Shown one piece after another: positions 1 through 11,601 of a stretch of DNA of 11,601 nt. How positions within the stretch are numbered: position 1 is the stretch's first letter; each line of letters starts with the position of its first letter. The stretch lies in NCBI GenBank assembly GCA_003694425.1, contig RFJX01000103.1, positions 1 through 11,601 on the forward strand. Direction: 5' to 3'. Both the position numbers and the translations under genes were made by a program. The notes under the pieces were generated by a model. That model saw only the letters and a program-made list of their open reading frames with translations, made no database searches and was not told the DNA's origin. This DNA is from Gammaproteobacteria bacterium. Lineage in GTDB: Bacteria > Pseudomonadota > Gammaproteobacteria > J113.

Positions 1-1352
1 GCCGCTATTTCCAGCGCGGGCGCGAGCGGCGCGGCTTCGCCGCCCTCGCCGATGCCATGGTCGCCCTCGCGGCCGGCGAGCCGCGCGAGGCGCTCAGCAA
101 GGCCGAGAAGGCCGAGCGCCTCCTCGGCCGGCCCGAGCTCACCCGGCTGATCACCGCCCAGGCGGCCGAGGCGGCGGGCGACCGCAAGCGCGCGGCCGAG
201 GCGTGGAAGGCGCTGCTCGCCGATCCGCGCACCCGCTTCGTCGGCGTGCGCGGGCTGATGCGCGAGAAACTCGCCGAGGGCGATGTCGAGACCGCCCTGG
301 CGCTGGCGCGCAAGGCCTTCGAGCTGCGCCCGCGCCACGGCGAGACGCTCGATACCCTCCTTGCCCTGCAGAACCGCGCCCATGACTGGCACGGCGCGCG
401 CACCACGCTCGCGGCGCAGTTGCGCGCCGGGCGTCTGCCGCGCGACGTCCACGCCCGCCGCGATGCGGTGCTCGCGCTGGCCGAGGCGCTCGACCGCGCG
501 TCGCGGGGCGATCAGGAGGGCGCGGACCGGGCGGCGCGCGAGGCGCAGCGCATGGCCCCCGATCTGGTGCCGGCGGCGGTGATGGCCGCGCGGGCCGAGC
601 TGCGGGCCGGCAACCGCCGCGCCGCCGAGCGCATCCTCCGCCGCGCGTGGAAGGCGGCCGGGCCGCACCCGGAGCTGGCCGCCGCCTGGGCCGCGCTCGA
701 GCCGGACGAGACGCCCGAGGCGCGCCGCCGCCGCTTCGCCAGGCTCCTTTCCGAGCACCCCGACGATCCCGAAACGCGGATGCTCGAGGCCGAGCTGGCG
801 CTGGCGGCCGAGGACTTCCCCGCCGCGCGCCGCGCCTTGGGCGATCTGCCCGAGACCCGCCCGACGGCCCGCGTGCTCACGCTGATGGCCGCGATCGCCA
901 AGGGGCAGGGCGCCCCGGAGCACGAGATCCGGGGCTGGCTGGCGCGGGCGATCTCGGCCCCGCGGGACCGGGCCTGGGTCTGCGAGGCCTGCGGCCATGT
1001 GCATGCCCATTGGGTGCCGCTGTGCGAGCGCTGCGGCGCCTTCGACACCCTGGCCTGGACCGAGCCGCCCGAGGGCGAGGCGGGCGCCCGCACCACGCCC
1101 GAGCTTTTGCCGGTGATCGCCGGTCTGCTCGAGGCCGGCGACCGGCCGGCCACGGAGGCGCCGGAGGAGTCGGAGGAGCCTGATGCCGCCGGGGCCGAAG
1201 CCGCATCGGCGGCGGGCGGATCCGATGCCGGCCCGGCCGAGCCTGCCGCACCCGAGTCGGCCCCGCCCCGGCGCGCTAGCGCCGACGATACCGAGGAGGT
1301 CTATGGCGACGTGGTGGTGCTGCCGGCGAGCGAGGAGCCGGGCAAGAGCTGA
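1..1352 (+). CDS. hemY: HemY-like TPR protein, 5'-truncated by window edge
   Basis: The reading frame is open from base 3 to the TGA at 1350-1352. The ATG at 57 is internal: in-frame residues before it (RYFQRGRERRGFAALADAM) match the arginine-rich stretch that follows the N-terminal membrane helices in HemY proteins, so the true start lies left of the window. What is visible is an Ala/Arg/Glu-rich chain of helical repeats of TPR type, then a C-terminal four-cysteine knuckle (CEACGHVHAHWVPLCERCG, about bases 981-1038) followed by FDTLAW, an ending typical of alphaproteobacterial HemY. HemY is an inner-membrane protein whose gene often lies in a haem-biosynthesis cluster; its exact role is not settled. 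After the knuckle comes an Ala/Glu/Pro-rich tail of about 90 residues that looks disordered. It is on the opposite strand from the redox operon and is probably unrelated to it. Family assignment is good; the function is inferred from the family. Confidence 0.8.
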   Translation, partial: RYFQRGRERRGFAALADAMVALAAGEPREALSKAEKAERLLGRPELTRLITAQAAEAAGDRKRAAEAWKALLADPRTRFVGVRGLMREKLAEGDVETALALARKAFELRPRHGETLDTLLALQNRAHDWHGARTTLAAQLRAGRLPRDVHARRDAVLALAEALDRASRGDQEGADRAAREAQRMAPDLVPAAVMAARAELRAGNRRAAERILRRAWKAAGPHPELAAAWAALEPDETPEARRRRFARLLSEHPDDPETRMLEAELALAAEDFPAARRALGDLPETRPTARVLTLMAAIAKGQGAPEHEIRGWLARAISAPRDRAWVCEACGHVHAHWVPLCERCGAFDTLAWTEPPEGEAGARTTPELLPVIAGLLEAGDRPATEAPEESEEPDAAGAEAASAAGGSDAGPAEPAAPESAPPRRASADDTEEVYGDVVVLPASEEPGKS

Positions 1353-1400: not shown

Positions 1401-1476
1401 GCCGGTGTAGCTCAGCTGGTAGAGCAGCGCATTCGTAATGCGCGGGTCGGGGGTTCGAGTCCCTTCACCGGCACCA
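1401..1476 (+). tRNA. tRNA-Thr (anticodon CGT)
   Basis: A full cloverleaf can be drawn by eye. The acceptor stem GCCGGTG pairs with CACCGGC (1466-1472), followed by discriminator A1473 and an encoded CCA at 1474-1476. The D arm carries AGCTCAGCTGGTAGAGC. The anticodon stem GCGCA (1427-1431) pairs with TGCGC (1439-1443) around the loop TTCGTAA, giving anticodon CGT at 1434-1436, which reads the threonine codon ACG. The T arm contains GGTTCGAGTCC. The 48 nt between the hemY-like stop and the tRNA hold no convincing -35/-10 pair. The 3' end faces the redox operon, which begins 32 nt further on and is transcribed toward it; no terminator with a T-run is visible between them. Confidence 0.97.
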
Positions 1477-1508: not shown

Positions 1509-2870
1509 TCAGCCGCCGCCCTGGTCCCGTCGGCGCGAGAGCATGCGGTAGATGCTGCGCTCGCTGATGCCCATGATCCGCGCCACGCGGCGGCGGTTGC
1601 CGCCGTGCCGCTCGAGCAGAAGGTCCAGATAGCGCTCGGCCAACCTGTCCAGATCGGGCTCGTCCGAGACGTCGAGGGCCCCGGCCGGCTCGCCGGGCCG
1701 GACGGCGTTGAGCTCGACGTGGCGGGGCAGGATGTTGGGGCTCTCGCCCGAGAGGATCACCGCCCGTTCGATCACCCCCTGCAGCTCGCGCAGGTTCCCC
1801 GGCCAGTCCCACTCGCACAGGCGCCGCAGCGCGCCCGACGACAGCCGCTTCGGCCGGTCCCGGGCAAAGCTCCTGCGCTTGAGGAAGTTCTGCGCAAGCT
1901 CGGGGATGTCCTTGCGGCGCTGGCGCAGCGGCGGCACCTCGAGCGTCATGCCGGAGAGCAGGAAGAACAGCTCCGGCACGATCTCGCGTCGGCCCGAGAC
2001 CGGGCCCGAGGCGAGCGTCACACCGGCGAGGATACGCGCCCGCAGCGGCTGCAACGCGGCCGAGCCCCGCCGGGCGAAGGCGCCGCTCTCGATGATGACC
2101 GCGATCTGGCGCTGCGCCGCGGCCGGGGCGCGGCCGATGTCGGCCAGATAGAGGGTGCCGCCGGCGGCGAGCTCGAGCAGTCCCGGCTCCTCGTCGCCGA
2201 CCAGCTCGGCCATCAGCGTCTCGGCCGAATGCTCGACGCAGGAAATCTGGTGGAAGGGCCCGTCGCGACGCGGACCCTGGTGGTGGATGAAGCGCGCGAC
2301 GGTGCGCTTGCCCGTCCCCCACTCGCCGGCGATCAGCGCCGGCACGTCACCCTCGGCCAGCGCGCTCGCCCGGCGGCGGAGCTGCACCATCTCGGGCGAG
2401 GAGCCGACGAGCTCGGGCGGCTCCTGAGCCCCGATCGCCCGGCGCAGCCGGCCAAGCTCGCCGCGCAGCCGTGCCATCTCGAGCACACGCGCCAGAACCA
2501 GTTCCAGGGCCGCCGGGGTGATCGGCTTGGTCAGGTAGTCGGCCGCTCCTGCCCGCACCGCCGCCACCGCCTGATCGACCGAGCCGTAGGCGGTGAGCAC
2601 CACCACCGGCGCGACACGGGCGAGCTCGGCGACGAGATCCATGCCGTCGGCATCGGGCAGGCGCTGATCGAGGAGCACCGCGTCGGGCCGGTGCGCGGCA
2701 ACGGCGGCGCGCGCCTCTGCCGCCGTGGCCGCCACCTCGGGCGTGTAGCCGAGCCCGGCGAGCTGGCGGGCGAGCAGCCGACCGAGGGTGGCGTCGTCAT
2801 CGACCAGGAGAACCCGCGCCGGCGCGGGCTGGCCGGCGGCTTGGCTTCGCTCGGGGGCCGCCAGGCTCAT
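1509..2870 (-). CDS. NtrC-family response regulator with degenerate AAA+ domain
   Basis: The 453-residue protein starts at the ATG 2870-2868, which overlaps the kinase stop (ATGA) and has a strong AGGAGG seven bases upstream. Domains: receiver at about 18-130, with acidic D24-D26, phospho-acceptor D68 (VLLDQRLP), T93 and K115; AAA+ region at about 150-375, with Walker A GEWGTGKR (182-189) and a WPGNLREL sensor II motif (356-363); Fis-type helix-turn-helix at about 424-446 (NRRRVARIMGISERSIYRML). The AAA+ domain is damaged as a sigma-54 activator. The GAFTGA loop is gone (VGDEEPGLLELAAGGT, roughly 10 residues shorter than usual), Walker B reads LYLADIG instead of LFLDEIG, and the arginine-finger segment LYYRL is LFFLL. 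It is therefore unlikely to remodel sigma-54 holoenzyme. By analogy with Rhodobacter capsulatus NtrC, which lacks GAFTGA and acts with sigma-70, it may be a direct activator or repressor. The likely partner is the adjacent kinase and the likely target is this operon; both are inferred. Confidence 0.9.
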   Translation of the reverse strand: MSLAAPERSQAAGQPAPARVLLVDDDATLGRLLARQLAGLGYTPEVAATAAEARAAVAAHRPDAVLLDQRLPDADGMDLVAELARVAPVVVLTAYGSVDQAVAAVRAGAADYLTKPITPAALELVLARVLEMARLRGELGRLRRAIGAQEPPELVGSSPEMVQLRRRASALAEGDVPALIAGEWGTGKRTVARFIHHQGPRRDGPFHQISCVEHSAETLMAELVGDEEPGLLELAAGGTLYLADIGRAPAAAQRQIAVIIESGAFARRGSAALQPLRARILAGVTLASGPVSGRREIVPELFFLLSGMTLEVPPLRQRRKDIPELAQNFLKRRSFARDRPKRLSSGALRRLCEWDWPGNLRELQGVIERAVILSGESPNILPRHVELNAVRPGEPAGALDVSDEPDLDRLAERYLDLLLERHGGNRRRVARIMGISERSIYRMLSRRRDQGGG

Positions 2871-4780
2871 GGGCGCGCCTCCTGCGGCGGGTGCTGCGCC
2901 TCTGCACCGGCGGAGGGGGCCTGCCGCGGCAGGGTGACGGTGAAGGTGGCGCCTTCGCCGGGGCGCGAGCGCACTTCGATGCGGCCGCCGGCGCGGCGGA
3001 CCACCTGCCGGCACAGCGCCAGCCCCAGCCCCCGCCCGCGGCTGCCGTCGGCGCGGCGGGTCCAGAAGGGCAGGAAGATGTGCTCGAGATCCTCGGGCGC
3101 GATGCCGACTCCACTATCGGCGACGGTCAGGCGCAGGCTGTCGGGTTCGGCGTCGATGGCAAGGCGCAGGCGCCCGCCGCCGCGCATGGCGTGCATCGCG
3201 TTGGCGACGAGGTTGAGGATGAGAATCCGCATGTCGCTTTCGGATCCGATCATCTGCGCGCCACCTTCCGGCGGCTCGAAATGCACCTCCACGCCCCCCT
3301 GCTCGAGGGCCGGCGCCATGAGCCGAAGCATGTCCCGCGCGAGGTCCGCAAGGTCGAAGACGGTGACCGTCTGCTCCGAGGGCATCGAGAGGCGCATCAG
3401 GCTCTCGGTGACCTCGAGGCAGGAGCGGATCTCGCCCTCGACCACCTCGGCCAGCTCGCGGCGCTCGTCGCCCTCGGGCAGGGCGTCGCGCATCTGGTCC
3501 ACCGCCAGCAGGATCGAGGACAGCGGGGTGTTGATCTCGTGCGCGACGCCGTTGGCCAGCATGGCCACTTCGGAGAGGCGCTGCTGCTGCGAGAGCTCCA
3601 CCTCGGCGTCGAGGTCGCGGATCACCTCGATCGCGCAGGCCTCGCTTCCGCCATCGGTCACGAGTCTCAGCGGCGCGGCGATGATGTCGGCGCTCATCTC
3701 GCGCCCGCCGGGCAGACGCAGGCGGTCGAGAAAGCGCGTGGTGTCGAGCCGGCCCTCGCGCAGCCGCGCCACCGGGCAGGTCTGGAGCGTGGCCGGGCAG
3801 GGCTCGTCGCGCCCGTGGGTCAGCGCGTAGCAGGGCCGGCCGATCACCTGCTCCCGCGGCAGGCCGAGCTGGGCGAGATGGGCGGCGTTGGCGTCGCGGA
3901 TGCGGTAGTCGGGTCCGATGACGCGGATGCCGTCCGGCGCGGCCTCGAGCACCGACCGCGTGGCCGAGAGCGCGGCGGCGAGCTGGTCGCGCGCCCGCTC
4001 GAGGCGCTCGGCCATCAGGTTGAAGCTGCGGGCGAAACGGGCGAGCTCGTCCGCCCCCTCGACCGGCGCGCGCCGCTCCAGCCGACCGGCGCCCAGCTCG
4101 CGGGCCGCCTCCTCGAGCCTCTGCAGCCGGGCGGTGACCAGCCGTCGCGTGGACCACCAGAGGGCGGCGGCGAGCAGGGCCATCACCACCGCGCCCATGC
4201 CGATCAGCATCAGCGAGGCGCGAAGCGCGTAGGCCCGGGCGGGGCCGGCGTCGAAATCGACCACCAGATAGCCGTTGACCGGATGGCGCTCGGGCGGGCC
4301 GTGGCACTCGGCGCAGGGCGGCTGGTTGTGCACGGGGTTGATGCTGCGGAGCACATCGCCGCGACCGGGCAGCGACAGGAACTCGCTGCGTGCCTCGCCG
4401 CGCCTCAGGGCGGTGCGCACGGCCTCGGTCTCGAGCCGCGTGCCGAGCGCGGTGTCATTGCTCGAGAAGCGGATCTCGCCGTTCGGTGCGATGATGTGCA
4501 CGCCGACGACCTCGGGCAGGGCCCCGACCCCGGCCACGATGCGCCGCAGCCCGGGCAGATCGCGCTTGAGCATGGCGTTCTCGAGGGCGGCGCGCAGGGC
4601 GTTGTTGACCGTGAGCGAGGCGCGGGCGTGCTCGCTCAGGAGGAAGCGCGTCTGGGCCGAGAGCAGGATCAGCAGGAAGGCGAGCGAGGCGAGGCCGAGG
4701 CCGGCGAGCGTCACCGCCATGAACTGGCGCAGGAGCGAGGCGCCGAGAAACGCGCGGGCCCGGCCCCACCAGCCGCGCAT
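2867..4780 (-). CDS. Membrane sensor histidine kinase with periplasmic CxxCH heme motif and Cys-rich PAS domain
   Basis: The 637-residue protein starts at the ATG 4780-4778 (MRGWWGRARAFLGASLLRQF), five bases after the ferredoxin stop. The open frame continues 41 residues upstream but overlaps that gene and is not membrane-like. Order: TM1 at about 21-43; periplasmic sensor at 44-187 with one c-type heme motif CAECH (156-160) near its end; TM2 at about 188-210; HAMP to about 265; PAS at about 270-390 with C317, C328 and C335 (RPCYALTHGRDEPCPATLQT, then CP); H-box with H414 (AHEINTPL); N-box around N527; G1 DSGVGI (555-560); F-box FLPFWTRR; G2 GRGLGLAL. It should autophosphorylate H414 and pass phosphate to D68 of the next gene, with which it overlaps by 4 nt. 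A covalent heme on the periplasmic face would suit sensing redox state or a small gas; the PAS cysteines could bind an Fe-S cluster or act as thiol switches. The signal is unknown. Confidence 0.92.
   Translation of the reverse strand: MRGWWGRARAFLGASLLRQFMAVTLAGLGLASLAFLLILLSAQTRFLLSEHARASLTVNNALRAALENAMLKRDLPGLRRIVAGVGALPEVVGVHIIAPNGEIRFSSNDTALGTRLETEAVRTALRRGEARSEFLSLPGRGDVLRSINPVHNQPPCAECHGPPERHPVNGYLVVDFDAGPARAYALRASLMLIGMGAVVMALLAAALWWSTRRLVTARLQRLEEAARELGAGRLERRAPVEGADELARFARSFNLMAERLERARDQLAAALSATRSVLEAAPDGIRVIGPDYRIRDANAAHLAQLGLPREQVIGRPCYALTHGRDEPCPATLQTCPVARLREGRLDTTRFLDRLRLPGGREMSADIIAAPLRLVTDGGSEACAIEVIRDLDAEVELSQQQRLSEVAMLANGVAHEINTPLSSILLAVDQMRDALPEGDERRELAEVVEGEIRSCLEVTESLMRLSMPSEQTVTVFDLADLARDMLRLMAPALEQGGVEVHFEPPEGGAQMIGSESDMRILILNLVANAMHAMRGGGRLRLAIDAEPDSLRLTVADSGVGIAPEDLEHIFLPFWTRRADGSRGRGLGLALCRQVVRRAGGRIEVRSRPGEGATFTVTLPRQAPSAGAEAQHPPQEARP
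2878..2883 (-). promoter_or_regulatory. Ribosome binding site of response regulator
   Basis: On the minus strand AGGAGG lies seven bases before the ATG at 2870. This decides the start: the open frame runs further upstream, but that part overlaps the kinase gene and has no regulator-like sequence. Confidence 0.75.
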
Positions 4781-4785
4781 GGGGC

Positions 4786-5763
4786 TCAGAGCACCAGAAT
4801 GTCGGGCCGGGTGTGCCCGCGCGCCGCGCAGACCGCGCACAGGGCCCGCTGCCCTGCCCGCCGGGCCGTCGGACGATGTGCCTGCACGCCGCATCCCTCG
4901 CACCTGAATTCGCTCAAGGCTATCGGCGCGGGGGCGGGGGCGTCAAACGCGATCTCGATCGCGCGGGCGTCGCAGAGCGCCGCGCACTGGCCGCAACCGT
5001 TGCAGCGCCAGGGCAGGATCCGGTAGCGCGGAACCGGCTCGGCATCGAGGCGGATCGCGCCGGTGGGGCAGACGCTCGCGCAACCGTCGCAACCTGTGCA
5101 GGCCTGCGGGTCGATGCGCGGCACGATCGGAAAGAGCGCGTCGGGCCGGCGGCGCGCGGCGAGCAGGCGGCCGAGCGCGCCGGGCGGCTCCTCCTCGTCC
5201 CGCGAGGTGCCGGCCGGCAAGCGCGCGAGCAGATGCCGCCGGCCGCGATCGGGGGCCACCGGCGCCAGCTTCGGGCCGAACAGCCCGCGCGTCGGCGGCT
5301 GCTCCTCGAAGGCAATGGTCTCGAGCCGGCGCGAGCGCAGCAGGGCGTTGAACCGCGCCAAAGTGCGCGTGAAGTCCGGCGCGCCCTGCCGGGGGCATCG
5401 GCCGCAATCGCGGGGCGCGGCGAGGATGCGGCGCACCCCGGCGAGCCACGCCGCGGCCAGCTGCTCGAGCCCGAGGGCGTTCAGGCAGCCGATGTTGGCG
5501 CGGCCGGGCAGCGCGCCGCTGCAGGCCAGCCGCCAGTCCGGGCCCTGCGGCTCGGGCAGCGGAAGCGGATCGAGCGCGCCGGCGGGGCAGGCGGCGGCGC
5601 AGGCGCCGCAGCCGTTGCAGGCCTCGGTGGCGATGCGGGGCGCGCTTCCGGCCGCGAGCTCGATCGCCGCGCGCGGGCAGGCCTGTTCGCACAGGGTGCA
5701 GCTGCCCAGCGGGTTGCGCGCCCGGCTGCATGCGGACGCCGCGACTCTCGGCGCCGGCGTCAC
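4786..5763 (-). CDS. Polyferredoxin-like iron-sulfur protein with C-terminal zinc-ribbon-like motif
   Basis: I chose the GTG start at 5763, which overlaps the chaperone stop as GTGA; a TTG lies one codon upstream. This gives 325 residues. Cysteine groups in order: C12 with C22, C25 and C29 (an atypical spaced set, CTLCEQACP); C49, C52, C55, C59 (CNGCGACAAACP); a middle set C81, C93, C120, C123; C222, C225, C228, C232 (CTGCDGCASVCP); C254, C257, C260, C264 (CNGCGQCAALC); and C288, C291 with C309, C312 (CEGC...CAVC), which looks like a zinc ribbon. That allows up to four or five [4Fe-4S] clusters. There is no signal peptide or membrane segment, so it is probably cytoplasmic. Its place between the chaperone and the kinase suggests a role in electron delivery or cofactor maturation for the Mo enzyme, or a redox link to another pathway. 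It resembles NapF/NapG-like ferredoxins only in general terms, and I cannot name a precise family. Confidence 0.85.
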   Translation of the reverse strand: MTPAPRVAASACSRARNPLGSCTLCEQACPRAAIELAAGSAPRIATEACNGCGACAAACPAGALDPLPLPEPQGPDWRLACSGALPGRANIGCLNALGLEQLAAAWLAGVRRILAAPRDCGRCPRQGAPDFTRTLARFNALLRSRRLETIAFEEQPPTRGLFGPKLAPVAPDRGRRHLLARLPAGTSRDEEEPPGALGRLLAARRRPDALFPIVPRIDPQACTGCDGCASVCPTGAIRLDAEPVPRYRILPWRCNGCGQCAALCDARAIEIAFDAPAPAPIALSEFRCEGCGVQAHRPTARRAGQRALCAVCAARGHTRPDILVL

Positions 5764-6533
5764 CAACTCGGCGCCGCCCCGGGCACGTAGGCCACCGCCT
5801 CGGGCTCGCTCGCCGCGCGCTTGGGCGGCTCGGGAATGCGCTCGGCCACGCCGGTGATGCGCTCGAGTTCGGCCCGCAGGCGCGACAGGAGCACGCCGGC
5901 GAACTCGGCCGCGGCGCGGTAGAGCGCGGTGTCGGCCCGCTGGGCCACGCGGCCGAGGAAGTTGCCGACCCAGGGGCCCATCTGCGTGTCCAGGAACACC
6001 GCCGCATCGACCAGCGCCGCGCCGCTCGCGGTCTCAAGGAGGAGCGAGACGAACTGCAGCATGGGCACGATGTGATCGTCGGGCCGCTTGCGCCAGTCGG
6101 GAACCTTGACCCCCCAATGCGCGTACCAGCGGCGGGCGGCGAACATCGGCTCCCCGCGCTCGGTGTGGTCGTCGGTCAGCCAGACCGAGGCGCTGGGCGC
6201 GGCGCGGTGGCCGTGGGTCAGGAAGATGTCGGCGTAGTCCGCCGCCAGCCGGTCGAGCACCGCCTGATCCGGCGTCTCGGGCAGGGCATCCACCGCGTCC
6301 TTCAGCCGCGCCACCGCCTCGCGCCCGGCGGAGTCATCGAGCACGCCGGCGAGAAAGGCCCAGAGCTCGGGCTCGGCCAGGGCGCGGACCGTGGCCGTGT
6401 CGAGCTCGCGATCGAACAGGCGCAGCACCACCCCGAGCGCCTCGGCGAATTCGGCGAGCCGGGCCCGCTCCGCGCCGTCCGGCTCGCGTGGCGTCTCGGG
6501 CAACTCGTGGAGCTTCTCCGCGGCGGCGCTCAT
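5760..6533 (-). CDS. TorD/DmsD-family maturation chaperone
   Basis: This 257-residue protein is almost all helical, with no signal peptide and no cysteines. It carries the family signature in the form RPDDHIVPMLQF (150-161), corresponding to the E-P-x-D-H motif of TorD/DmsD/NarJ-type chaperones, followed by a helix SLLLE. Known members bind the twin-arginine leader and the immature Mo subunit in the cytoplasm, help insert the molybdopterin guanine dinucleotide cofactor and hold back export until folding is complete. It lies two genes downstream of a Tat-leader Mo enzyme, which is the obvious client. The ATG at 6533 overlaps the stop of the Fe-S subunit (ATGA), and its own stop overlaps the next start (GTGA), so translation is probably coupled on both sides. 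It is longer than the usual roughly 200 residues because of a polar N-terminus and a Pro/Ala/Glu-rich tail after about residue 230. Confidence 0.88.
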   Translation of the reverse strand: MSAAAEKLHELPETPREPDGAERARLAEFAEALGVVLRLFDRELDTATVRALAEPELWAFLAGVLDDSAGREAVARLKDAVDALPETPDQAVLDRLAADYADIFLTHGHRAAPSASVWLTDDHTERGEPMFAARRWYAHWGVKVPDWRKRPDDHIVPMLQFVSLLLETASGAALVDAAVFLDTQMGPWVGNFLGRVAQRADTALYRAAAEFAGVLLSRLRAELERITGVAERIPEPPKRAASEPEAVAYVPGAAPSW

Positions 6534-7198
6534 CCCTGCACCTTGCCCTTGGAGTGCGGCACGAAGACGATCGACGGGTGGGTGAGGTTGGGATCGGCCA
6601 TGCCGCGCACCTGATCGACCACCTCGTCATGCGGCCCGCGCGCCTTCGTCTCGTAGGTGCCGGCGCGCAGCTCGTCGATCGGCCCGATGTCGAGCACCCG
6701 CATCATGCAGGCCTCGACGCAGTAGGGCTTGCGGCCTGCCTCGAGCTGGTCGATGCACATGTTGCATTTCTTGACCACCTTCTCCTCGGGGTCGAACTGC
6801 GGCGCGCCGAACGGACAGGCCGCCTCGCATTTGCGGCAGCCGATGCAGAGGGTGGAGTCGATGTCCACCACCCCGTTGTCCTTGCGCTTGAAGATCGCCC
6901 CCGTCGGGCAGGCCGGCAGGCAGGCCGGCTCCGCGCAGTGGTTGCAGGACATGTTGATCTTGAAGGCGAACACCTCGGGGAAGGTGCCGCCCTCGACGTA
7001 CTGCACCCGGCGGAAGCGGGGTCCGGCGGGCAGGCCGTTCTTGTCCTTGCACGCCATCTCGCAGGCCCGGCAGCCGATGCAGTCCACGTTGTTGTGGATG
7101 AAGCCGAGCTGCACCTCCGGCACGACCTTGGGGTAGCCGTACTTGCGGAGACGGGCGACGCTCTCCTTGATCTTCGCCTTGTCGATCCGGTTGGCCAT
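6530..7198 (-). CDS. dmsB-like: DmsB-like electron-transfer subunit with four [4Fe-4S] clusters
   Basis: The 222-residue protein has sixteen cysteines in four ferredoxin groups, laid out as in DmsB/NrfC/PhsB: C40, C43, C46, C50 (CIGCRACEMAC); C85, C88, C93, C97 (CNHCAEPACLPACP); C118, C121, C124, C128 (CIGCRKCEAACPFGAP); C145, C148, C160, C164 (CNMC ... CVEAC). The tail GPIDELR also matches DmsB closely. It would take electrons to or from the catalytic Mo subunit and pass them to a cytochrome or membrane partner. It has no leader of its own, as is normal for subunits exported by hitch-hiking with the Tat-leader catalytic subunit. The start ATG at 7198 has GGAGGAGG eight bases upstream. It begins 18 nt after the Mo subunit stop and overlaps the chaperone start by 4 nt. 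The first residues (MANRIDKAKIKESVARLRKY) are an amphipathic extension before the first cluster. Family is secure; the exact partner is not. Confidence 0.93.
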   Translation of the reverse strand: MANRIDKAKIKESVARLRKYGYPKVVPEVQLGFIHNNVDCIGCRACEMACKDKNGLPAGPRFRRVQYVEGGTFPEVFAFKINMSCNHCAEPACLPACPTGAIFKRKDNGVVDIDSTLCIGCRKCEAACPFGAPQFDPEEKVVKKCNMCIDQLEAGRKPYCVEACMMRVLDIGPIDELRAGTYETKARGPHDEVVDQVRGMADPNLTHPSIVFVPHSKGKVQG

Positions 7199-7206
7199 CT
7201 CGTCTG

Positions 7207-7214
7207 CCTCCTCC
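7207..7214 (-). promoter_or_regulatory. Strong ribosome binding site of DmsB-like subunit
   Basis: GGAGGAGG on the minus strand lies eight bases before the ATG at 7198, inside the 18-nt gap after the Mo subunit gene. It sets the start. Confidence 0.75.
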
Positions 7215-7216
7215 GC

Positions 7217-9775
7217 TCAAAGATCCCGCCGGAACACGGCGCTGCGCGACGTGGCCAGGATGTCCCAGCCCGGGCGGTGTGCCTTGTCGGTCTTGCGCAC
7301 GTTGCAGAGCACGGTGTTGTAGGCGAACGCGCCCGCCGGGCTCGGGTTGTCCAAGGTCAGGAAGTCGGGGTTCCCCGCCCGGTCCGAGCCGTCCTCGGCG
7401 ATGTCCATCCAGGCGCCCTCGTGCAGCACCACCACGCCGGGCATCACCCGCTCGGTCACATAGACCGGCACCACCACCGAGCCGCGCTCGTTGTAGACCT
7501 CGACCGTGTCGCCGGTCTGGATGCCCAGCTTGCGGGCATCGGACGCGTTCATCGTCAGCTCCTGGCTGTAGGTCTCGCGCAGCCAGGGGATGTTGTTGAA
7601 GATCGAATGCGTCCGCCACCGCGGGTGCGGCGAAACCATGTGGAAGGGGTAGTCCTTGGTCTTGGGCGAGTTCAGGCTCTCCCAAGGCTCGATCCACTTC
7701 GGGATCGGCGGGATCGGGTAGCCGTACTGGGTCTTGGTCCAGTCCTTGATCTGGGCCAGCGTCGTCGAGAAGATCTCGATCTTGCCCGAGGGTGTGGGCC
7801 AGGGCACCCCCTTCTCGACCTGCTCGCGGAAGGCCACGTGCGGCTCCGGCAGGCGGAACTTGTAGACCCCCCGGCGCTTGAACTCCTCCCAGGTGATCTC
7901 GACCCCCTGGTGATGGCGCACCCGCTCCCACCATTCGGCGAGATAGGCCTCGTCCACGGGATCGGGGTTGTAGAAGTAGTCCCGCGTGGCCTTCGGGTTG
8001 TAGGCCGGCCCGAAGCCGAGCCGGTAGGCGAGCTCGGTGAAGATCTGGAAGTCGGTCTTCGACTCGCCGAGCGGCTCGATCACCTTCGGCCGGTGGATGT
8101 AGTAGTGGCCCTTGTACCAGGGGAGGGCGACGTCGTGGCGCTCGAAATGCGTCGCCACCGGCAGCAGGAAGTCGGCCCAGAGCCCGGTCGGGGTGATCGT
8201 GCTGTCCATGCAGACGAACAGGCTCTCCATGTCGCCTTCCGCCTTGAGCTTGCGGATGGCCTGGATCTCCTTGTTGATGTTCGTCAGCTGGTTGAACCAG
8301 TCGGAGCCCTGCCAGAAGATGCCGCGGATGTTGGGGATCACCCCGTCGAGGTGATCGTTGCGCGGCCACAGGCCGATCTCCTCGCGCTTGACGTTGGGGT
8401 AGTTGAGCACGCAGTGGGCCCAGCGGTCCGACTTGATCGAGGCGAACCAGACGTTGGCCCACTGGTCGTAGGGATAGGCCACCGCCTCGGCGTGCCAGCC
8501 CTTGCCGACCCCCTCGGCGCAGCCGCCGAGCACGCCGATGTTGCCGGTCATGGCCTGCAGCGCGTTGGCCATGCGGGCGTATTGCTCGCCATAGGCGTTG
8601 CGCCCCGGCGCCCAGCTCGCCTTGAGCGCGGCCGGCTTGGTGGTCGCGTACATGTGGGCGAGCTTCTTGATGTCCTCGGCCGGCACCCCGCAGATCTCGG
8701 AGGCCCATTCCGGGGTCTTGGGCTGGCCGTCGAACTTGCCGAGGATGTAGTCCTTGAAGCTCTCCTGCCCCTTGGCCCAGTCGGGCATGGTGCCTTCGTC
8801 CATGCCCTGGACGAAGCGGTTGATGAATTCCTGATCCTGCAGGTTGTTGGTGAAGATGTAGTGCGCCATGCCGGCCATCATGGCCGCGTCGGTGTTGGGC
8901 CGGATCGGGATCCACCAGGCGTCATAGGCGGCGGCGCTGTCGGTGTACTGCGGATCGACCAGCACGAACTTGCAGCCGCGCTGCTTGGCGAGCCGCATGT
9001 AGTAGAAGGTGTTGCCGCCGTGGAAGGTGTAGGCCGGGTTCCAGCCCCACATGATGATCAGCTTCGAGTGCGCGAAGGCGTCATCCTCGTTGCCGTCGTG
9101 GATGGTGCCGTAGTTGATCCGGCTGGCGAAGGTCGTGCCCTGGTAGGACGGCACCGACCAGGACGAGGTGCGGCAGCCGAACATGCCGAGGAAGCGGCCG
9201 AGCAGTCCCTCGATCTGGTCGGACTTGTGCAGCACGCCGTAGGATGCGCCGGCGTAGGACTGATCGACGAGCGCGGTCGGGCCGTACTTGTTCTTGATGT
9301 AGACCATGCGCTCGGCGATCTCGGACAGCGCCTCGTCCCAGCTCACCCGCTTGAACTTGCCTTCGCCGCGCTTGCCCACCCGCTTCATCGGGTAGAGGAG
9401 CCGCTCGGCCGAGTAGAGCCGCACCCGGTAGCTGCGCCCGCGCAGGCAGGCGCGAAGCTGGGGCATCTGCTCGGTGTCGGTGCCGTAGGCGTCGCCCTGG
9501 TAGCTGCCGTTGTCGGTCGAGAGCCGGACGATCACGTCGCCCTTCTTGTGCGCGACCAGCATGTGGCGCGAGCCGCAGTTGTGGGCGCAGGAGGTGACCA
9601 CCGTCTCGAGCTGATCATCGGTGTAGTAGGGCTCGTAGGCGAAGGCCCGGGCGGGGTGGCGGACACCGTCGGCGACCAGCCCGCCGGCGACGAGCGCCGC
9701 CGAACCCTTGAGGAATCCGCGCCGGCTCGGGGCGAAGGGGCCGGCCGCGGCGTCGGGTCGATCAATCCTGGTCAT
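7217..9775 (-). CDS. dmsA-like: DmsA-like molybdopterin oxidoreductase, Tat-exported catalytic subunit
   Basis: The 852-residue protein starts at the ATG 9775-9773, with AAGGAG seven bases upstream; the frame is open for another 35 codons, but those overlap the cytochrome gene and are Pro/Ser/Arg-rich. It has a twin-arginine leader SRRGFLKG (17-24) followed by a hydrophobic stretch, so export is by Tat as a folded enzyme. The N-terminal Fe-S region reads C63-x3-C67-x3-H71 ... C110 (CAHNCGSRHML, then ACLRGRS). E. coli DmsA has a third cysteine where this protein has His71. DmsA-like blocks continue: YPMKRVGKRGEGKFKRVSWDEA (129-150 region), WIPIRPNTDAA, KTPEWASEICGVPAEDI, ADFLLPVATHFER, TPSGKIEIFS and MPGVVVLHEGAW. 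The likely protein ligand to Mo is Ser210 (SVPSYQGTT), as in DmsA, by rough alignment. The family uses bis-MGD for oxygen-atom transfer or related two-electron chemistry. No DmsC anchor follows; a hexaheme cytochrome precedes. Substrate and direction are unknown. DMSO/TMAO reduction, dimethyl sulfide oxidation or another oxyanion are all open. Confidence 0.93.
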   Translation of the reverse strand: MTRIDRPDAAAGPFAPSRRGFLKGSAALVAGGLVADGVRHPARAFAYEPYYTDDQLETVVTSCAHNCGSRHMLVAHKKGDVIVRLSTDNGSYQGDAYGTDTEQMPQLRACLRGRSYRVRLYSAERLLYPMKRVGKRGEGKFKRVSWDEALSEIAERMVYIKNKYGPTALVDQSYAGASYGVLHKSDQIEGLLGRFLGMFGCRTSSWSVPSYQGTTFASRINYGTIHDGNEDDAFAHSKLIIMWGWNPAYTFHGGNTFYYMRLAKQRGCKFVLVDPQYTDSAAAYDAWWIPIRPNTDAAMMAGMAHYIFTNNLQDQEFINRFVQGMDEGTMPDWAKGQESFKDYILGKFDGQPKTPEWASEICGVPAEDIKKLAHMYATTKPAALKASWAPGRNAYGEQYARMANALQAMTGNIGVLGGCAEGVGKGWHAEAVAYPYDQWANVWFASIKSDRWAHCVLNYPNVKREEIGLWPRNDHLDGVIPNIRGIFWQGSDWFNQLTNINKEIQAIRKLKAEGDMESLFVCMDSTITPTGLWADFLLPVATHFERHDVALPWYKGHYYIHRPKVIEPLGESKTDFQIFTELAYRLGFGPAYNPKATRDYFYNPDPVDEAYLAEWWERVRHHQGVEITWEEFKRRGVYKFRLPEPHVAFREQVEKGVPWPTPSGKIEIFSTTLAQIKDWTKTQYGYPIPPIPKWIEPWESLNSPKTKDYPFHMVSPHPRWRTHSIFNNIPWLRETYSQELTMNASDARKLGIQTGDTVEVYNERGSVVVPVYVTERVMPGVVVLHEGAWMDIAEDGSDRAGNPDFLTLDNPSPAGAFAYNTVLCNVRKTDKAHRPGWDILATSRSAVFRRDL

Positions 9776-9782
9776 TGCGGAA

Positions 9783-9788
9783 CTCCTT
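9783..9788 (-). promoter_or_regulatory. Ribosome binding site of Mo subunit
   Basis: AAGGAG on the minus strand lies seven bases before the ATG at 9775, in the 25-nt gap after the cytochrome gene. It supports the start that places the twin-arginine motif at residues 17-24. Confidence 0.75.
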
Positions 9789-9800
9789 CGCTTCTCCGGC

Positions 9801-11273
9801 TCACTGGCCGGCCTCGGGCAGCTGGTACTCGGGCTTGCTGGTGGTGGGGCGATCCTTGGCCCAGTCAGGGACCTCCTCATCCATGTCGGGCCAGGGATGG
9901 CGCGGGTAGGGGTAGGAGATCTGGTACCACTGCCGCCCGCCGTGGCAGCCGAAGCAGGTGTCGGACTTCTGGCGCGCGAGCTTCTCGATGTTGAGCGCGT
10001 TGAGGTAGCTCACGTTGTGGCGGTTGGTGCGGATCGTCTCGTGGCAGCTCAGGCAGCCGTTGGGCGTCTCGTCGCTCTCGAAGTCGGCGCGCACCTCGGG
10101 CCACGGGCCGCCGAGGCCCATGATCTTCTCGGGATCGGGCATGGCGCCGTGGCACAGCAGGCAGGTCTCCGAGGGGTTCACCATCTTGCGGTTGGTGAAC
10201 TCGGGAACCGCCGGCGCCGTGCCCGCCTGGCGCGTCGGCACCATGTCCGGGCTCTCCTCGCGCGGATCGTTGCCCTTGTGGCAGAAGTTGCAGCGCAGGT
10301 TCATCACCTGCTTGGCGAAGGGGCTCTGCAGGTGCCGCCAGTGGAAGCTGGCCTGCGGGCCCTCGTAGGTGTCGAGGGTCTGGTACCAGGCCAGAACCTG
10401 GTCGGCGCGGACCCCTGCGGGCGAGACCTCGCGCGGCTTGTAGGTCAGGATTTCCTGATGGCAGACGAGGCACTCCTCGTCGCTCGCCTCGTTGATGGCG
10501 GGCGGGAAGTGGATCGGATGATACCGGGCGCGCTGATAGTCCATGCCGGCGTCCACGGCCGCCTTGATCGCGGCGGCCCGCTCGCGGGCACGGGCGATCT
10601 CGTCCGCCGAGCGCGGCGGCGGGTTGCGGAAGGCGGCGAGGATCTCGTCAAGGCCGGAGTCCCCGGCCGCTGCGGCCGCCGTCTCCCCCTGGGCAGCGGA
10701 CGCGGCCGCTGCCGATCCCGCCTGCGCCTTGAGCCAGGCGATGACCGCCTTGCGGTCCTCGGCCTTCTTCAGGCCTGCAAAGCTCATCTTGGTCCCGGGA
10801 ACCGCGGCCTTGGGCTTGGCGAGGAAGGCATCGAGCGCGGCCTCGTCCCAGACGCCGCCCTTGGCCTTGAGCGCGCTTGAGTAGCGGAAGCCCTCGACCG
10901 AGGCGACCGGCCGGCCGACCACGCCATGCAGGTTGGGGCCGGTGCCGTTGCGGCCGCCGGGGTCGGCGTTGTGGCAGGCCTTGCACTTGCGGAAGACCTT
11001 GGCGCCGCGCGCCACCAGATCGTCCGTGCCCGCCTGCGCGAGCCGCGTCGGGGCGGCGGGCGCGCCGGTGGCCCGGGAGGCGGGGGCAGGTGTGCCGTCG
11101 TTGGCGACTGTGGGGCTGGCGGCGGCGACGCGCTCGCGCTCTTGCGTGCCCTCATCCGTTCCCGGCGAGAACAGCTGACCGAGCCCGGTGAGCAGCACGA
11201 TGAACGCCACCACGGTCGCCGCGGCGGCGAGCAACGCCGTGAACCAGCCCAGAATCGTTTCCAAACTCCTCAT
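9801..11273 (-). CDS. Membrane-anchored hexaheme cytochrome c: cytochrome cy-like domain fused to a pentaheme region
   Basis: The 490-residue protein starts at the ATG 11273-11271 with AAGGAG six bases upstream. An uncleaved-looking N-terminal membrane helix (about 9-35, [19 protein letters not shown]) is followed by an Ala/Pro/Thr-rich linker to about 80. Residues 85-185 form a class I cytochrome c: CKACH (97-101), [12 protein letters not shown], and TKMSF with M163 as the probable sixth ligand. Helix, linker and class I domain together match the layout of cytochrome cy. After an Ala-rich spacer comes a second part with five more CxxCH motifs: CLVCH (268-272), CNFCH (328-332), CLLCH (371-375), CLSCH (407-411) and CFGCH (440-444). 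It should face the periplasm. Lying directly upstream of the Mo subunit, it is the natural electron partner of the DmsAB-like pair: the pentaheme part would contact the enzyme and the cy-like part the cytochrome c pool, bc1 or a terminal oxidase. That wiring is inferred. I do not recognise the pentaheme region as a named family. Confidence 0.92.
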
Positions 11274-11279
11274 CGCGCG

Positions 11280-11285
11280 CTCCTT
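11280..11285 (-). promoter_or_regulatory. Ribosome binding site of hexaheme cytochrome
   Basis: AAGGAG on the minus strand, six bases before the ATG at 11273. It fixes the start just before the membrane helix. Confidence 0.75.
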
Positions 11286-11301
11286 CCCGGTTGGTCTGGG
11301 A

Positions 11302-11329
11302 GCGGGCGACCGCCGCAGCGATCGCCCGC
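11302..11329 (-). other. Inverted repeat (hairpin) in the 63-nt intercistronic gap
   Basis: GCGGGCGA (11302-11309) and TCGCCCGC (11322-11329) are perfect complements around a 12-nt loop, between the Met-rich gene stop and the cytochrome ribosome binding site. No T-run follows on the minus strand, so it is not a typical intrinsic terminator. It could stabilise or process the mRNA and let the two genes be expressed at different levels, or it could be chance in GC-rich DNA. Confidence 0.4.
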
Positions 11330-11336
11330 CGGGTGG

Positions 11337-11601
11337 TCACTCGCTCTTCTCTTTGGACTTCTCGTCCTTCTTCTCGGTCGGGGGCACCCATTCGCCGGAC
11401 ATGCCGCCCATGCCCGACATCCCGGACATGCCGCTCATGCCACCCATGCCCGACATGCCGCTCATCCCCGACATGCCGCTCATCCCCGACATCCGGGGCG
11501 AAGCGGTCCACTGGGTGCAGATCCACCGGGCACCCACCGCGCCGGCCATGCCGGACATGCCGCTCATGCCACCCATGCCGGACATGCCGCCCATTCCGGA
11601 C
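11337..11601 (-). CDS. Methionine/glycine/serine repeat protein, N-terminus beyond right edge
   Basis: The frame is open from the TGA at 11339-11337 to the end of the window and codes Ser-Gly before the first visible Met (ATG 11594-11592), so the gene almost certainly starts outside. The visible 88 or so residues hold two runs of the tripeptide Met-(Ser/Gly/Ala)-Gly: six copies, then a 16-residue spacer AVGARWICTQWTASPR, then eleven copies, ending in a charged tail EWVPPTEKKDEKSKEKSE. Serine within the repeats is coded by TCC, TCG and AGC, and glycine by GGC, GGT and GGG, so the repeat is kept at the protein level and is not a fresh DNA slippage product. Methionine-rich chains of this kind can bind soft metals such as Cu(I), but that is only a possibility here. 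It is the first visible gene of the redox operon, 63 nt before the cytochrome. I do not recognise the family and cannot see whether it has a signal peptide. Confidence 0.75.
   Translation of the reverse strand, partial: SGMGGMSGMGGMSGMSGMAGAVGARWICTQWTASPRMSGMSGMSGMSGMSGMGGMSGMSGMSGMGGMSGEWVPPTEKKDEKSKEKSE
11394..11492 (-). repeat. Eleven tandem 9-bp units coding Met-Ser/Gly-Gly
   Basis: Eleven consecutive in-frame ATG-NNN-GGN units: five MSG, one MGG, three MSG, one MGG, one MSG. Third positions and serine codon families vary between units. Expansion or contraction would keep the frame, so length variation between strains is plausible. Confidence 0.85.
11541..11601 (-). repeat. Second Met-x-Gly 9-bp repeat block, continuing past the edge
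   Basis: Six in-frame units (MGG MSG MGG MSG MSG MAG) are complete in 11541-11594, preceded by Ser-Gly codons that indicate at least one more unit beyond the window. It is separated from the larger block by a unique 48-nt spacer that encodes two Trp and the only visible Cys. Confidence 0.8.

Follow-up and report, generated by a model that had tools for sequence, protein, structure and literature searches.

Systems that resemble the one described here differ in how their molybdenum enzymes are wired to electron carriers. DmsABC of Escherichia coli takes electrons from quinol through DmsC, and DmsEFAB of Shewanella combines DmsAB with a decahaem cytochrome and a porin and has no DmsC. The type II enzymes DdhABC, ClrABC and SerABC have an Asp molybdenum ligand and a haem-b gamma subunit and are linked to cytochrome c, and MsrP, a member of the sulfite-oxidase family, is partnered in MsrPQ by a membrane cytochrome b. 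Here we analyse a stretch of 11,601 nucleotides (contig RFJX01000103.1, from a bin classified as Gammaproteobacteria), referred to as the window, that carries a gene set of another composition, the module: a DmsAB-like enzyme without DmsC, a cytochrome with six haem motifs and a protein built of Met-X-Gly triplets. As the original prediction, made from the window's letters alone, had argued, this layout is unlike both DmsABC and the DmsE/DmsF system: family cut-offs are missed, and neither DmsC nor a decahaem cytochrome is present. We found no description of this clade of the dimethyl sulfoxide (DMSO) reductase family, and no paper naming the gene set in the open-licence PMC literature. Members of the clade come from two or more proteobacterial classes and from one plasmid typed as conjugative; it appears to replace the quinol anchor by a pentahaem cytochrome, has a His-Cys3 cluster motif at an unusual position and seems tied to an extreme methionine-repeat protein. 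Our best explanation of the whole, offered tentatively, is that a cytochrome-wired DmsAB-like enzyme reduces methionine sulfoxide of that repeat protein.

Gene content, clade and candidate electron route

The gene unit lies on the minus strand, is read from the right end of the window and extends leftward to position 1509, kinase and regulator included. In reading order, followed by the two flanking genes, the features are:

11337..11601, minus strand: C-terminal part of a (Met-X-Gly)n repeat protein; open frame cut at the contig end, 17 MxG triplets, 20% Met
9801..11273, minus strand: membrane-tethered cytochrome; N-terminal hydrophobic segment, cytochrome cy-like domain (one CxxCH) and pentahaem domain (five CxxCH)
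7217..9775, minus strand: DmsA-like subunit for molybdenum bis-molybdopterin guanine dinucleotide (Mo-bisMGD) with a twin-arginine translocation (Tat) signal; 852 residues from ATG 9775, FS0 motif C-C-H-C, Ser aligned with the Mo ligand
6530..7198, minus strand: DmsB-like four-cluster ferredoxin subunit; TIGR02951 match below cut-off, all 16 Cys kept
5760..6533, minus strand: TorD/DmsD-type maturation chaperone; PF02613 match, NF003442 (TorD) at 83 bits, below the cut-off of 132
4786..5766, minus strand: polyferredoxin, probable maturation factor; Fer4 domains, NapF/PorD-like matches below cut-off, TTG start uncertain
2867..4780, minus strand: sensor histidine kinase whose periplasmic sensor domain carries a CxxCH haem motif; ATG 4780 likelier than GTG 4903
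1509..2870, minus strand: sigma-54-dependent response regulator (NtrC type), from domain and family scans
1401..1473, plus strand: tRNA gene, beside the module and not part of it
3..1352, plus strand: HemY-like protein, outside the module, which served to place the contig (domain scan, genome comparisons)

Nine window proteins were scanned against Pfam and NCBIfam, and signal peptides and membrane segments were judged by eye throughout. The scans and open reading frames agree with the original prediction of a Tat-signal DmsA-like molybdenum subunit, a DmsB-like subunit and a TorD/DmsD chaperone in one unit, and they also bear out its membrane-tethered cytochrome with six CxxCH motifs (one plus five), its Met-rich repeat protein (an open frame) and its polyferredoxin (Fer4 domains). 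Pfam found no DmsC, NrfD or NapC/NirT domain among the nine proteins, in line with the anchor-less window that had been claimed. The DmsA-like protein matches PF00384 and PF01568. Its likeliest start is the ATG at 9775, and an upstream start at 9880, giving a frame of 887 residues, is also callable. A twin-arginine motif, SRRGFLK, is visible by eye, and PF10518 scores 20.5 bits (E 0.00044) against a cut-off of 22.7. Both enzyme subunits fall under their family cut-offs, DmsA with 623.6 against 777.7 bits for TIGR02166 and DmsB with 200.4 against 214.1 bits for TIGR02951, and the 16 Cys columns of E. coli DmsB are all Cys in the window and are kept in at least 19 of 20 module DmsB proteins.

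The gene set recurs in many genomes, so the window's arrangement is more than chance. A cytochrome-based scan of species genomes returned six module loci: two in Marinosulfonomonas and one each in a Rhodobacteraceae metagenome-assembled genome (MAG), Anderseniella, a Hyphomicrobiales MAG and an uncultured alphaproteobacterium, the last (L011) with no polyferredoxin, kinase or regulator within its stretch. Among 369 genomes of the bin's class, own bin included, 15 have a match to the DmsA-like protein at E≤1e-100 (71-81% identity outside the own bin). Four further genomes came from a 398-genome draw across the phylum (77-85%), and three at 78% from a 385-genome draw of the class of genome G526, two of them already in the former draw. 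The sole close record in a plasmid search was pEJ01 (NZ_CP017782.1) of Rhodobacter xanthinilyticus LPB0142 (80%; next best 37%). DmsA identity across module genomes spans 69-87%, and the module's hosts represent two or more proteobacterial classes and include R. xanthinilyticus, an isolate from sea water. The module order recurs in 27 loci, window included, over which conservation was counted; several misses lie at contig ends. The pentahaem gene stands immediately upstream of dmsA in 24 (downstream in L048, absent from L046, and L049 offers only 50 bp of upstream DNA), dmsB downstream of dmsA in 25, torD in 24, and the polyferredoxin gene follows torD in 20.

Two neighbourhoods have features of their own. 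The plasmid that carries the R. xanthinilyticus module (L062) is typed as conjugative, and transposase genes of IS21 and IS1380 type occur in the stretch examined; in Anderseniella a nitric oxide reductase set (norCB and accessory genes, named by eye) lies upstream of the module (L009 390-5863).

In a 58-protein tree, made by a quick method whose program printed long-branch warnings, the 26 module DmsA rows form a single clade outside DmsA/YnfE (SH-aLRT support 100; stem of about 1.1 changes per site), in keeping with the new module that the original prediction had suggested; L049, with its truncated N-terminus, entered neither the tree nor the FS0 count. All 26 rows carry the FS0 motif C-x3-C-x3-H...C, in which His replaces the third Cys, and none of the 32 other rows, seven of which lack FS0 altogether, has His there. 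The window's residues are C98, C102, H106 and C145 in the 887-residue numbering, with the His106 codon at 9563-9565. All 26 clade rows have Ser opposite the Ser of E. coli DmsA that we take to be the Mo ligand, and the alignment rules out Tyr in that role. More distant DmsA relatives (39-42% identity; L177-L180 and L129) in five genomes of G526's class have a four-Cys FS0. They gave no match to a simple Tat pattern, which also missed one of five module proteins searched alongside, and around L129, the one distant relative whose surroundings were examined (stretch L163), no partner genes were found. Because these relatives keep four Cys and show no simple Tat match, the His seemingly arose together with export and the cytochrome partner. 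Such a His may raise the potential of the cluster and so suit a cytochrome c partner.

The window cytochrome has CxxCH motifs at residues 97, 268, 328, 371, 407 and 440. The first lies within residues ~16-184, which resemble cytochrome cy/c552, and the other five form a pentahaem domain by alignment with the pentahaem family. Module cytochromes have five or six CxxCH motifs in 20/20 cases. Three of these (window, L006 and L011) join the pentahaem part to a cytochrome c domain, the R. xanthinilyticus protein is likewise such a fusion with six CxxCH, and other loci encode a separate monohaem cytochrome nearby. In the Pfam scan, which covered window proteins, the cytochrome gave no match to PF03264 (NapC/NirT), an OmcA/MtrC-type profile reached 22.5 bits against a cut-off of 209.3, a profile search of the PDB with the pentahaem protein gave nothing better than E 0.36, and an AlphaFold model had a mean predicted local distance difference test score of 37 and was unusable.

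Could the enzyme nevertheless be anchored by a quinol-oxidising protein of the DmsC or NrfD type whose gene lies elsewhere in the genome? The DmsC family PF04976, the anchor family searched there, has matches in nine of 18 module genomes and none in the other nine, several of which are called 99-100% complete. The match in genome G456 lies in a 630-residue DmsB-DmsC fusion (L173 10365-12257) whose neighbours look by eye like nirB and nasA; the fusion is encoded on the other strand from the module and converges with the module's regulator. We rejected it as the module's anchor, taking it for a separate fusion by nitrate/nitrite-assimilation-like genes; in four more genomes the DmsC matches lie in frames of 627-654 residues. 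An anchor just past the window's right edge, an outcome that the original prediction had allowed for, was likewise rejected, since relatives with upstream DNA carry a Met-rich gene there, often with a small protein, and not DmsC. A distant anchor is very unlikely in our judgement. Given the nine genomes without a DmsC match, cytochrome c wiring is the best reading, and exchange with the cytochrome c pool is supported by those members in which a cytochrome c domain is fused. We consider the absence of DmsC together with wiring to the cytochrome highly probable.

For the parts named by the original prediction as standing in place of DmsC, these results retain the cytochrome and discard the polyferredoxin. 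The latter has no signal peptide visible by eye and is encoded downstream of torD, and therefore probably serves enzyme maturation in the cytoplasm and does not stand in for DmsC. The predicted periplasmic enzyme exchanging electrons with the cytochrome c pool fits the anchor-less module, the fused cytochrome c domains and the nine genomes without DmsC. The likely path, in an order suggested by gene content, would run between the Mo site, FS0, the DmsB clusters, the pentahaem protein and cytochrome c.

The methionine-repeat protein, small protein and proposed regulation

Upstream of the cytochrome gene lies a protein of Met-X-Gly triplets, up to 123 in number with a longest run of 117, and with 18-31% Met in frames free of N runs or frame changes. 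Full-length relatives start with a signal-peptide-like stretch (by eye), and interruptions such as WVCTQW and YFKITPQGQIFFYP recur across loci. By a strict triplet rule the gene is present upstream in 23 of the 27 loci. L044 has a partial Met-rich frame at a contig edge that is not counted among them, the 50 bp at L049 hold no region for the gene, and at L159 the protein is split over two frames, a probable frameshift. Nine stretches open inside the gene (L006, L007, L008, L037, L039, L040, L047, L162 and the window), which suggests that assemblies tend to end at this gene and that MAGs may under-report it. Pfam reads the Anderseniella protein as collagen-like (PF01391, E 3e-36) because Gly occupies every third residue; the likeness is one of sequence pattern and does not imply trimer formation.

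Repeat and enzyme also occur together at the level of genomes. A DNA pattern of six Met in MxG register, searched in 369 genomes of the bin's class with the own bin included, gave at least five matches in 18, among them all 15 enzyme-bearing genomes (Fisher p = 4e-24; 9e-23 minus the own genome). The five-match threshold was set after viewing the match table, and the two surveys are presumed to cover the same 369 genomes from the equal number and matching handles. Many single matches are (MGG)n runs, presumably like those of GroEL tails. A functional link between the Met protein and the enzyme is probable. The original prediction had listed the Met-rich protein correctly and left its informative role as a partner unused.

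A conserved small protein of ~100-118 residues precedes the Met gene in 11 loci. It has no Pfam match, a signal-peptide-like start, an APVI motif and an end like PYD(I/L)R.WH (L062 9278-9634; L009 8130-8447). At L019 it lies downstream of torD instead, and L042 has none despite 8 kb of upstream DNA. As a separate observation, the kinase and Met genes of L042 (5207-6028) and L043 are separated by the gene of a 274-residue protein of unknown family, which has weaker matches in L038, L045 and L048.

Sites of sigma-54 type with standard spacing, TGGCA[CTG]-N5-[CT]TGC[ATG], occur within 300 bp upstream of the small-gene match in eight of 12 loci, with 0.055 expected; distances were counted from the start of the tblastn match and not from the start codon. 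Three pattern versions were tried in all: a looser pattern came first, and a spacer one base short gave matches in 0/12 loci. TGCCA-TGGCA palindromes, considered as activator sites, lie upstream of the small gene in just two of 12. The kinase sensor domain carries CxxCH in 12/12 kinases, window included.

Proposed function and competing explanations

From gene content, conservation, the separate clade, the ligand change in FS0 and the promoter-like sites we infer export, an electron route, regulation, a direction and a substrate as follows. A periplasmic DmsAB-like Mo enzyme would pair with a dedicated pentahaem cytochrome in lieu of DmsC and so exchange electrons with cytochrome c, not directly with quinol. 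DmsA would hold the Mo site and the His-Cys3 FS0 cluster, and DmsB, with four clusters and carried across the membrane by the DmsA Tat signal, would hand electrons to the pentahaem protein, which some alphaproteobacteria have as a fusion with a tethered cytochrome cy domain. Maturation of the enzyme in the cytoplasm may fall to TorD and the polyferredoxin. The haem-c kinase and sigma-54 regulator could turn on a unit starting with the small protein and the (Met-X-Gly)n protein, both apparently exported. The methionine polymer would then be the macromolecular partner of the enzyme. Reactive species would oxidise its Met, and the enzyme, as an S-oxide-type reductase, would return polymer methionine sulfoxide to Met.

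Methionine sulfoxide as the main substrate is possible, and short of an even bet. More speculative still is an enzyme-polymer redox pair, in which a cytochrome c-coupled reductase has the collagen-like (Met-X-Gly)n protein as its physiological substrate. If that pairing holds, the polymer would store and return oxidising equivalents as methionine sulfoxide, acting as a protein redox capacitor or a regenerating oxidant shield. There are precedents: the periplasmic Rhodobacter DMSO reductase DorA reduces protein-bound methionine sulfoxide (PMC7402097); in perchlorate reducers, an exported Met-rich peptide (mrpX) and the methionine sulfoxide reductase YedYZ form a methionine cycle against hypochlorite (PMC4623255); and MsrPQ of E. 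coli maintains a copper chaperone's Met in the reduced state (PMC9302797). These precedents lead us to favour reduction of polymer methionine sulfoxide, with oxyanion reduction alongside a methionine sponge close behind.

In the oxyanion alternative, which is conceivable though doubtful, the enzyme would be a cytochrome c-linked reductase of iodate, bromate or chlorate, and the Met polymer a sponge for by-product hypohalous acid or peroxide. Cytochrome c-linked enzymes such as ClrABC and SerABC suit high-potential acceptors, and the clade's His-Cys3 FS0 is reminiscent of type II enzymes. The alternative also gains from the association of mrpX with perchlorate reduction (PMC4623255). It is weakened by the placement of the enzyme outside the oxyanion-reductase family (TIGR03479 at 223.9 bits, cut-off 984.75) and by the neighbouring open reading frames, among which inspection by eye, with no profile search, noticed no chlorite dismutase, peroxidase or halide gene.

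Two explanations that we regard as unlikely give the enzyme other sulfur chemistry. It might oxidise an organic sulfur compound such as dimethyl sulfide and pass electrons to cytochrome c by DdhABC-like logic: redox potentials favour this direction, the cytochrome cy type, which the domain in the window cytochrome resembles, feeds oxidases, and hosts include Marinosulfonomonas MAGs and a sea-water isolate. Yet the clade keeps the Ser ligand, where DdhA has Asp, and the Met protein would be left unexplained by anything in the module. Improbable too is ordinary anaerobic S- or N-oxide respiration through the cytochrome instead of DmsC, with the Met protein as a bystander that binds Cu(I) or Ag(I). 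Cu and Ag are known to bind MxxM motifs, and the nearest characterised kin of the enzyme are DmsA/YnfE and DorA; a P-type-ATPase-like frame, recognised by eye with no profile search for copper genes, lies near one module (L045 1-2550), and PMC5008109 describes SilE as a periplasmic silver sponge. The changes to active site and cluster across the clade do not fit ordinary respiration, and a bystander would leave the 15/15 co-occurrence unexplained.

Several observations weigh against our preferred explanation, that the enzyme reduces methionine sulfoxide of the polymer with electrons from cytochrome c. Cytochrome c at about +0.25 V is usually more oxidising than sulfoxide/sulfide couples at about +0.16 V; sulfoxide reduction from the cytochrome c pool would therefore be slightly uphill, which favours high-potential oxyanions or the oxidative direction. 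Within the pocket, the clade keeps a DorA-like Tyr and has Gly at the position of the neighbouring DorA Trp (residues presumably numbered Tyr114 and Trp116), making the active site unlike those of known S-oxide reductases. Gaps in the association count on the same side: L046, a second, orphan dmsA copy in genome G031, has no partners and no Met gene, and L048 has no Met gene in 2.1 kb upstream. Conversely, MxG repeats occur without the clade enzyme in G272 (98% complete), G237 (55% complete) and G035, in none of which a loose search found it, so the repeat is able to occur alone; G272 and G237 share genera with the enzyme-bearing G008 and G122, and the repeats of G035 are (MGG)n. Finally, four of the 12 loci (L019, L041, L062 and L160) lack a sigma-54-type site upstream of the small gene, L019 having one ~100 bp before its Met frame. 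The question, whether a molybdoenzyme turns over methionine in a purpose-built polymer, is testable in a cultured isolate.

Origin of the contig and comparison with known systems

The contig is probably mis-binned. The window HemY is 53% identical to a protein of G526, a genome of a class other than the bin's (E 1.5e-124), and has 34-37% matches in three more genomes outside that class and none in a further one, G469; within the bin's class, matches occur in seven of 55 other genomes, with a best E of 6e-7. The window DmsA is 87% identical to that of a Rhodobacteraceae MAG and at most 81% to those in the bin's class. In tetranucleotide usage the window correlates with 19 pooled bin contigs at 0.882, against 0.892-0.990 (median 0.977) for each contig versus the rest, and its G+C of 72.0% lies inside their range of 61.1-72.8%; composition alone is weak evidence for mis-binning. 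HemY and DmsA identity, and weakly the tetranucleotides, suggest an alphaproteobacterial window in a gammaproteobacterial bin. With mis-binning probable, absence of DmsC from the own bin says little about the true host, and an NrfD gene there was set aside as a possible anchor.

By the features tested in these sequences, the module falls outside DmsABC, DmsEFAB, TorCA/DorCA and the type II family. With DmsABC and YnfEFGH of E. coli it shares homologous A and B subunits (~36% identity for DmsA), the Ser Mo ligand, the 16 DmsB Cys and a TorD-family chaperone; it differs in lacking DmsC, in having His for the third FS0 Cys and a Tyr/Gly substrate pocket, in adding cytochrome partners and a Met-repeat protein, and in scoring below both NCBIfam cut-offs. 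DmsEFAB likewise combines DmsAB with a multihaem cytochrome and no DmsC, whereas the module's cytochrome has five or six haem motifs, not ten, and no porin was noticed by eye, with no porin profile run. TorCA and DorCA share with it a periplasmic Mo enzyme beside a pentahaem cytochrome gene (observed in a torCA neighbourhood) and the DorA-like Tyr. In contrast to these, the window's pentahaem protein has no NapC/NirT Pfam match, and the module enzyme has FS0, DmsB and Gly for the DorA Trp. The type II enzymes DdhABC, ClrABC and SerABC also link a periplasmic Mo/Fe-S enzyme to cytochrome c, but the module has Ser and not Asp as the ligand, no haem-b gamma subunit was recognised in it, and it misses the TIGR03479 cut-off. 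MrpX/YedYZ (MsrPQ) offers a different kind of parallel, since there too the gene of an apparently exported Met-rich protein accompanies those of a Mo enzyme and a haem protein; here, however, the Mo enzyme is of the DMSO-reductase family (PF00384/PF01568), the repeat is (MxG)n and the partner is a cytochrome c. If the proposed function is correct, oxidation of protein methionine would serve in electron transfer or in defence against oxidants, and the nearest precedent known to us would be MrpX/YedYZ.

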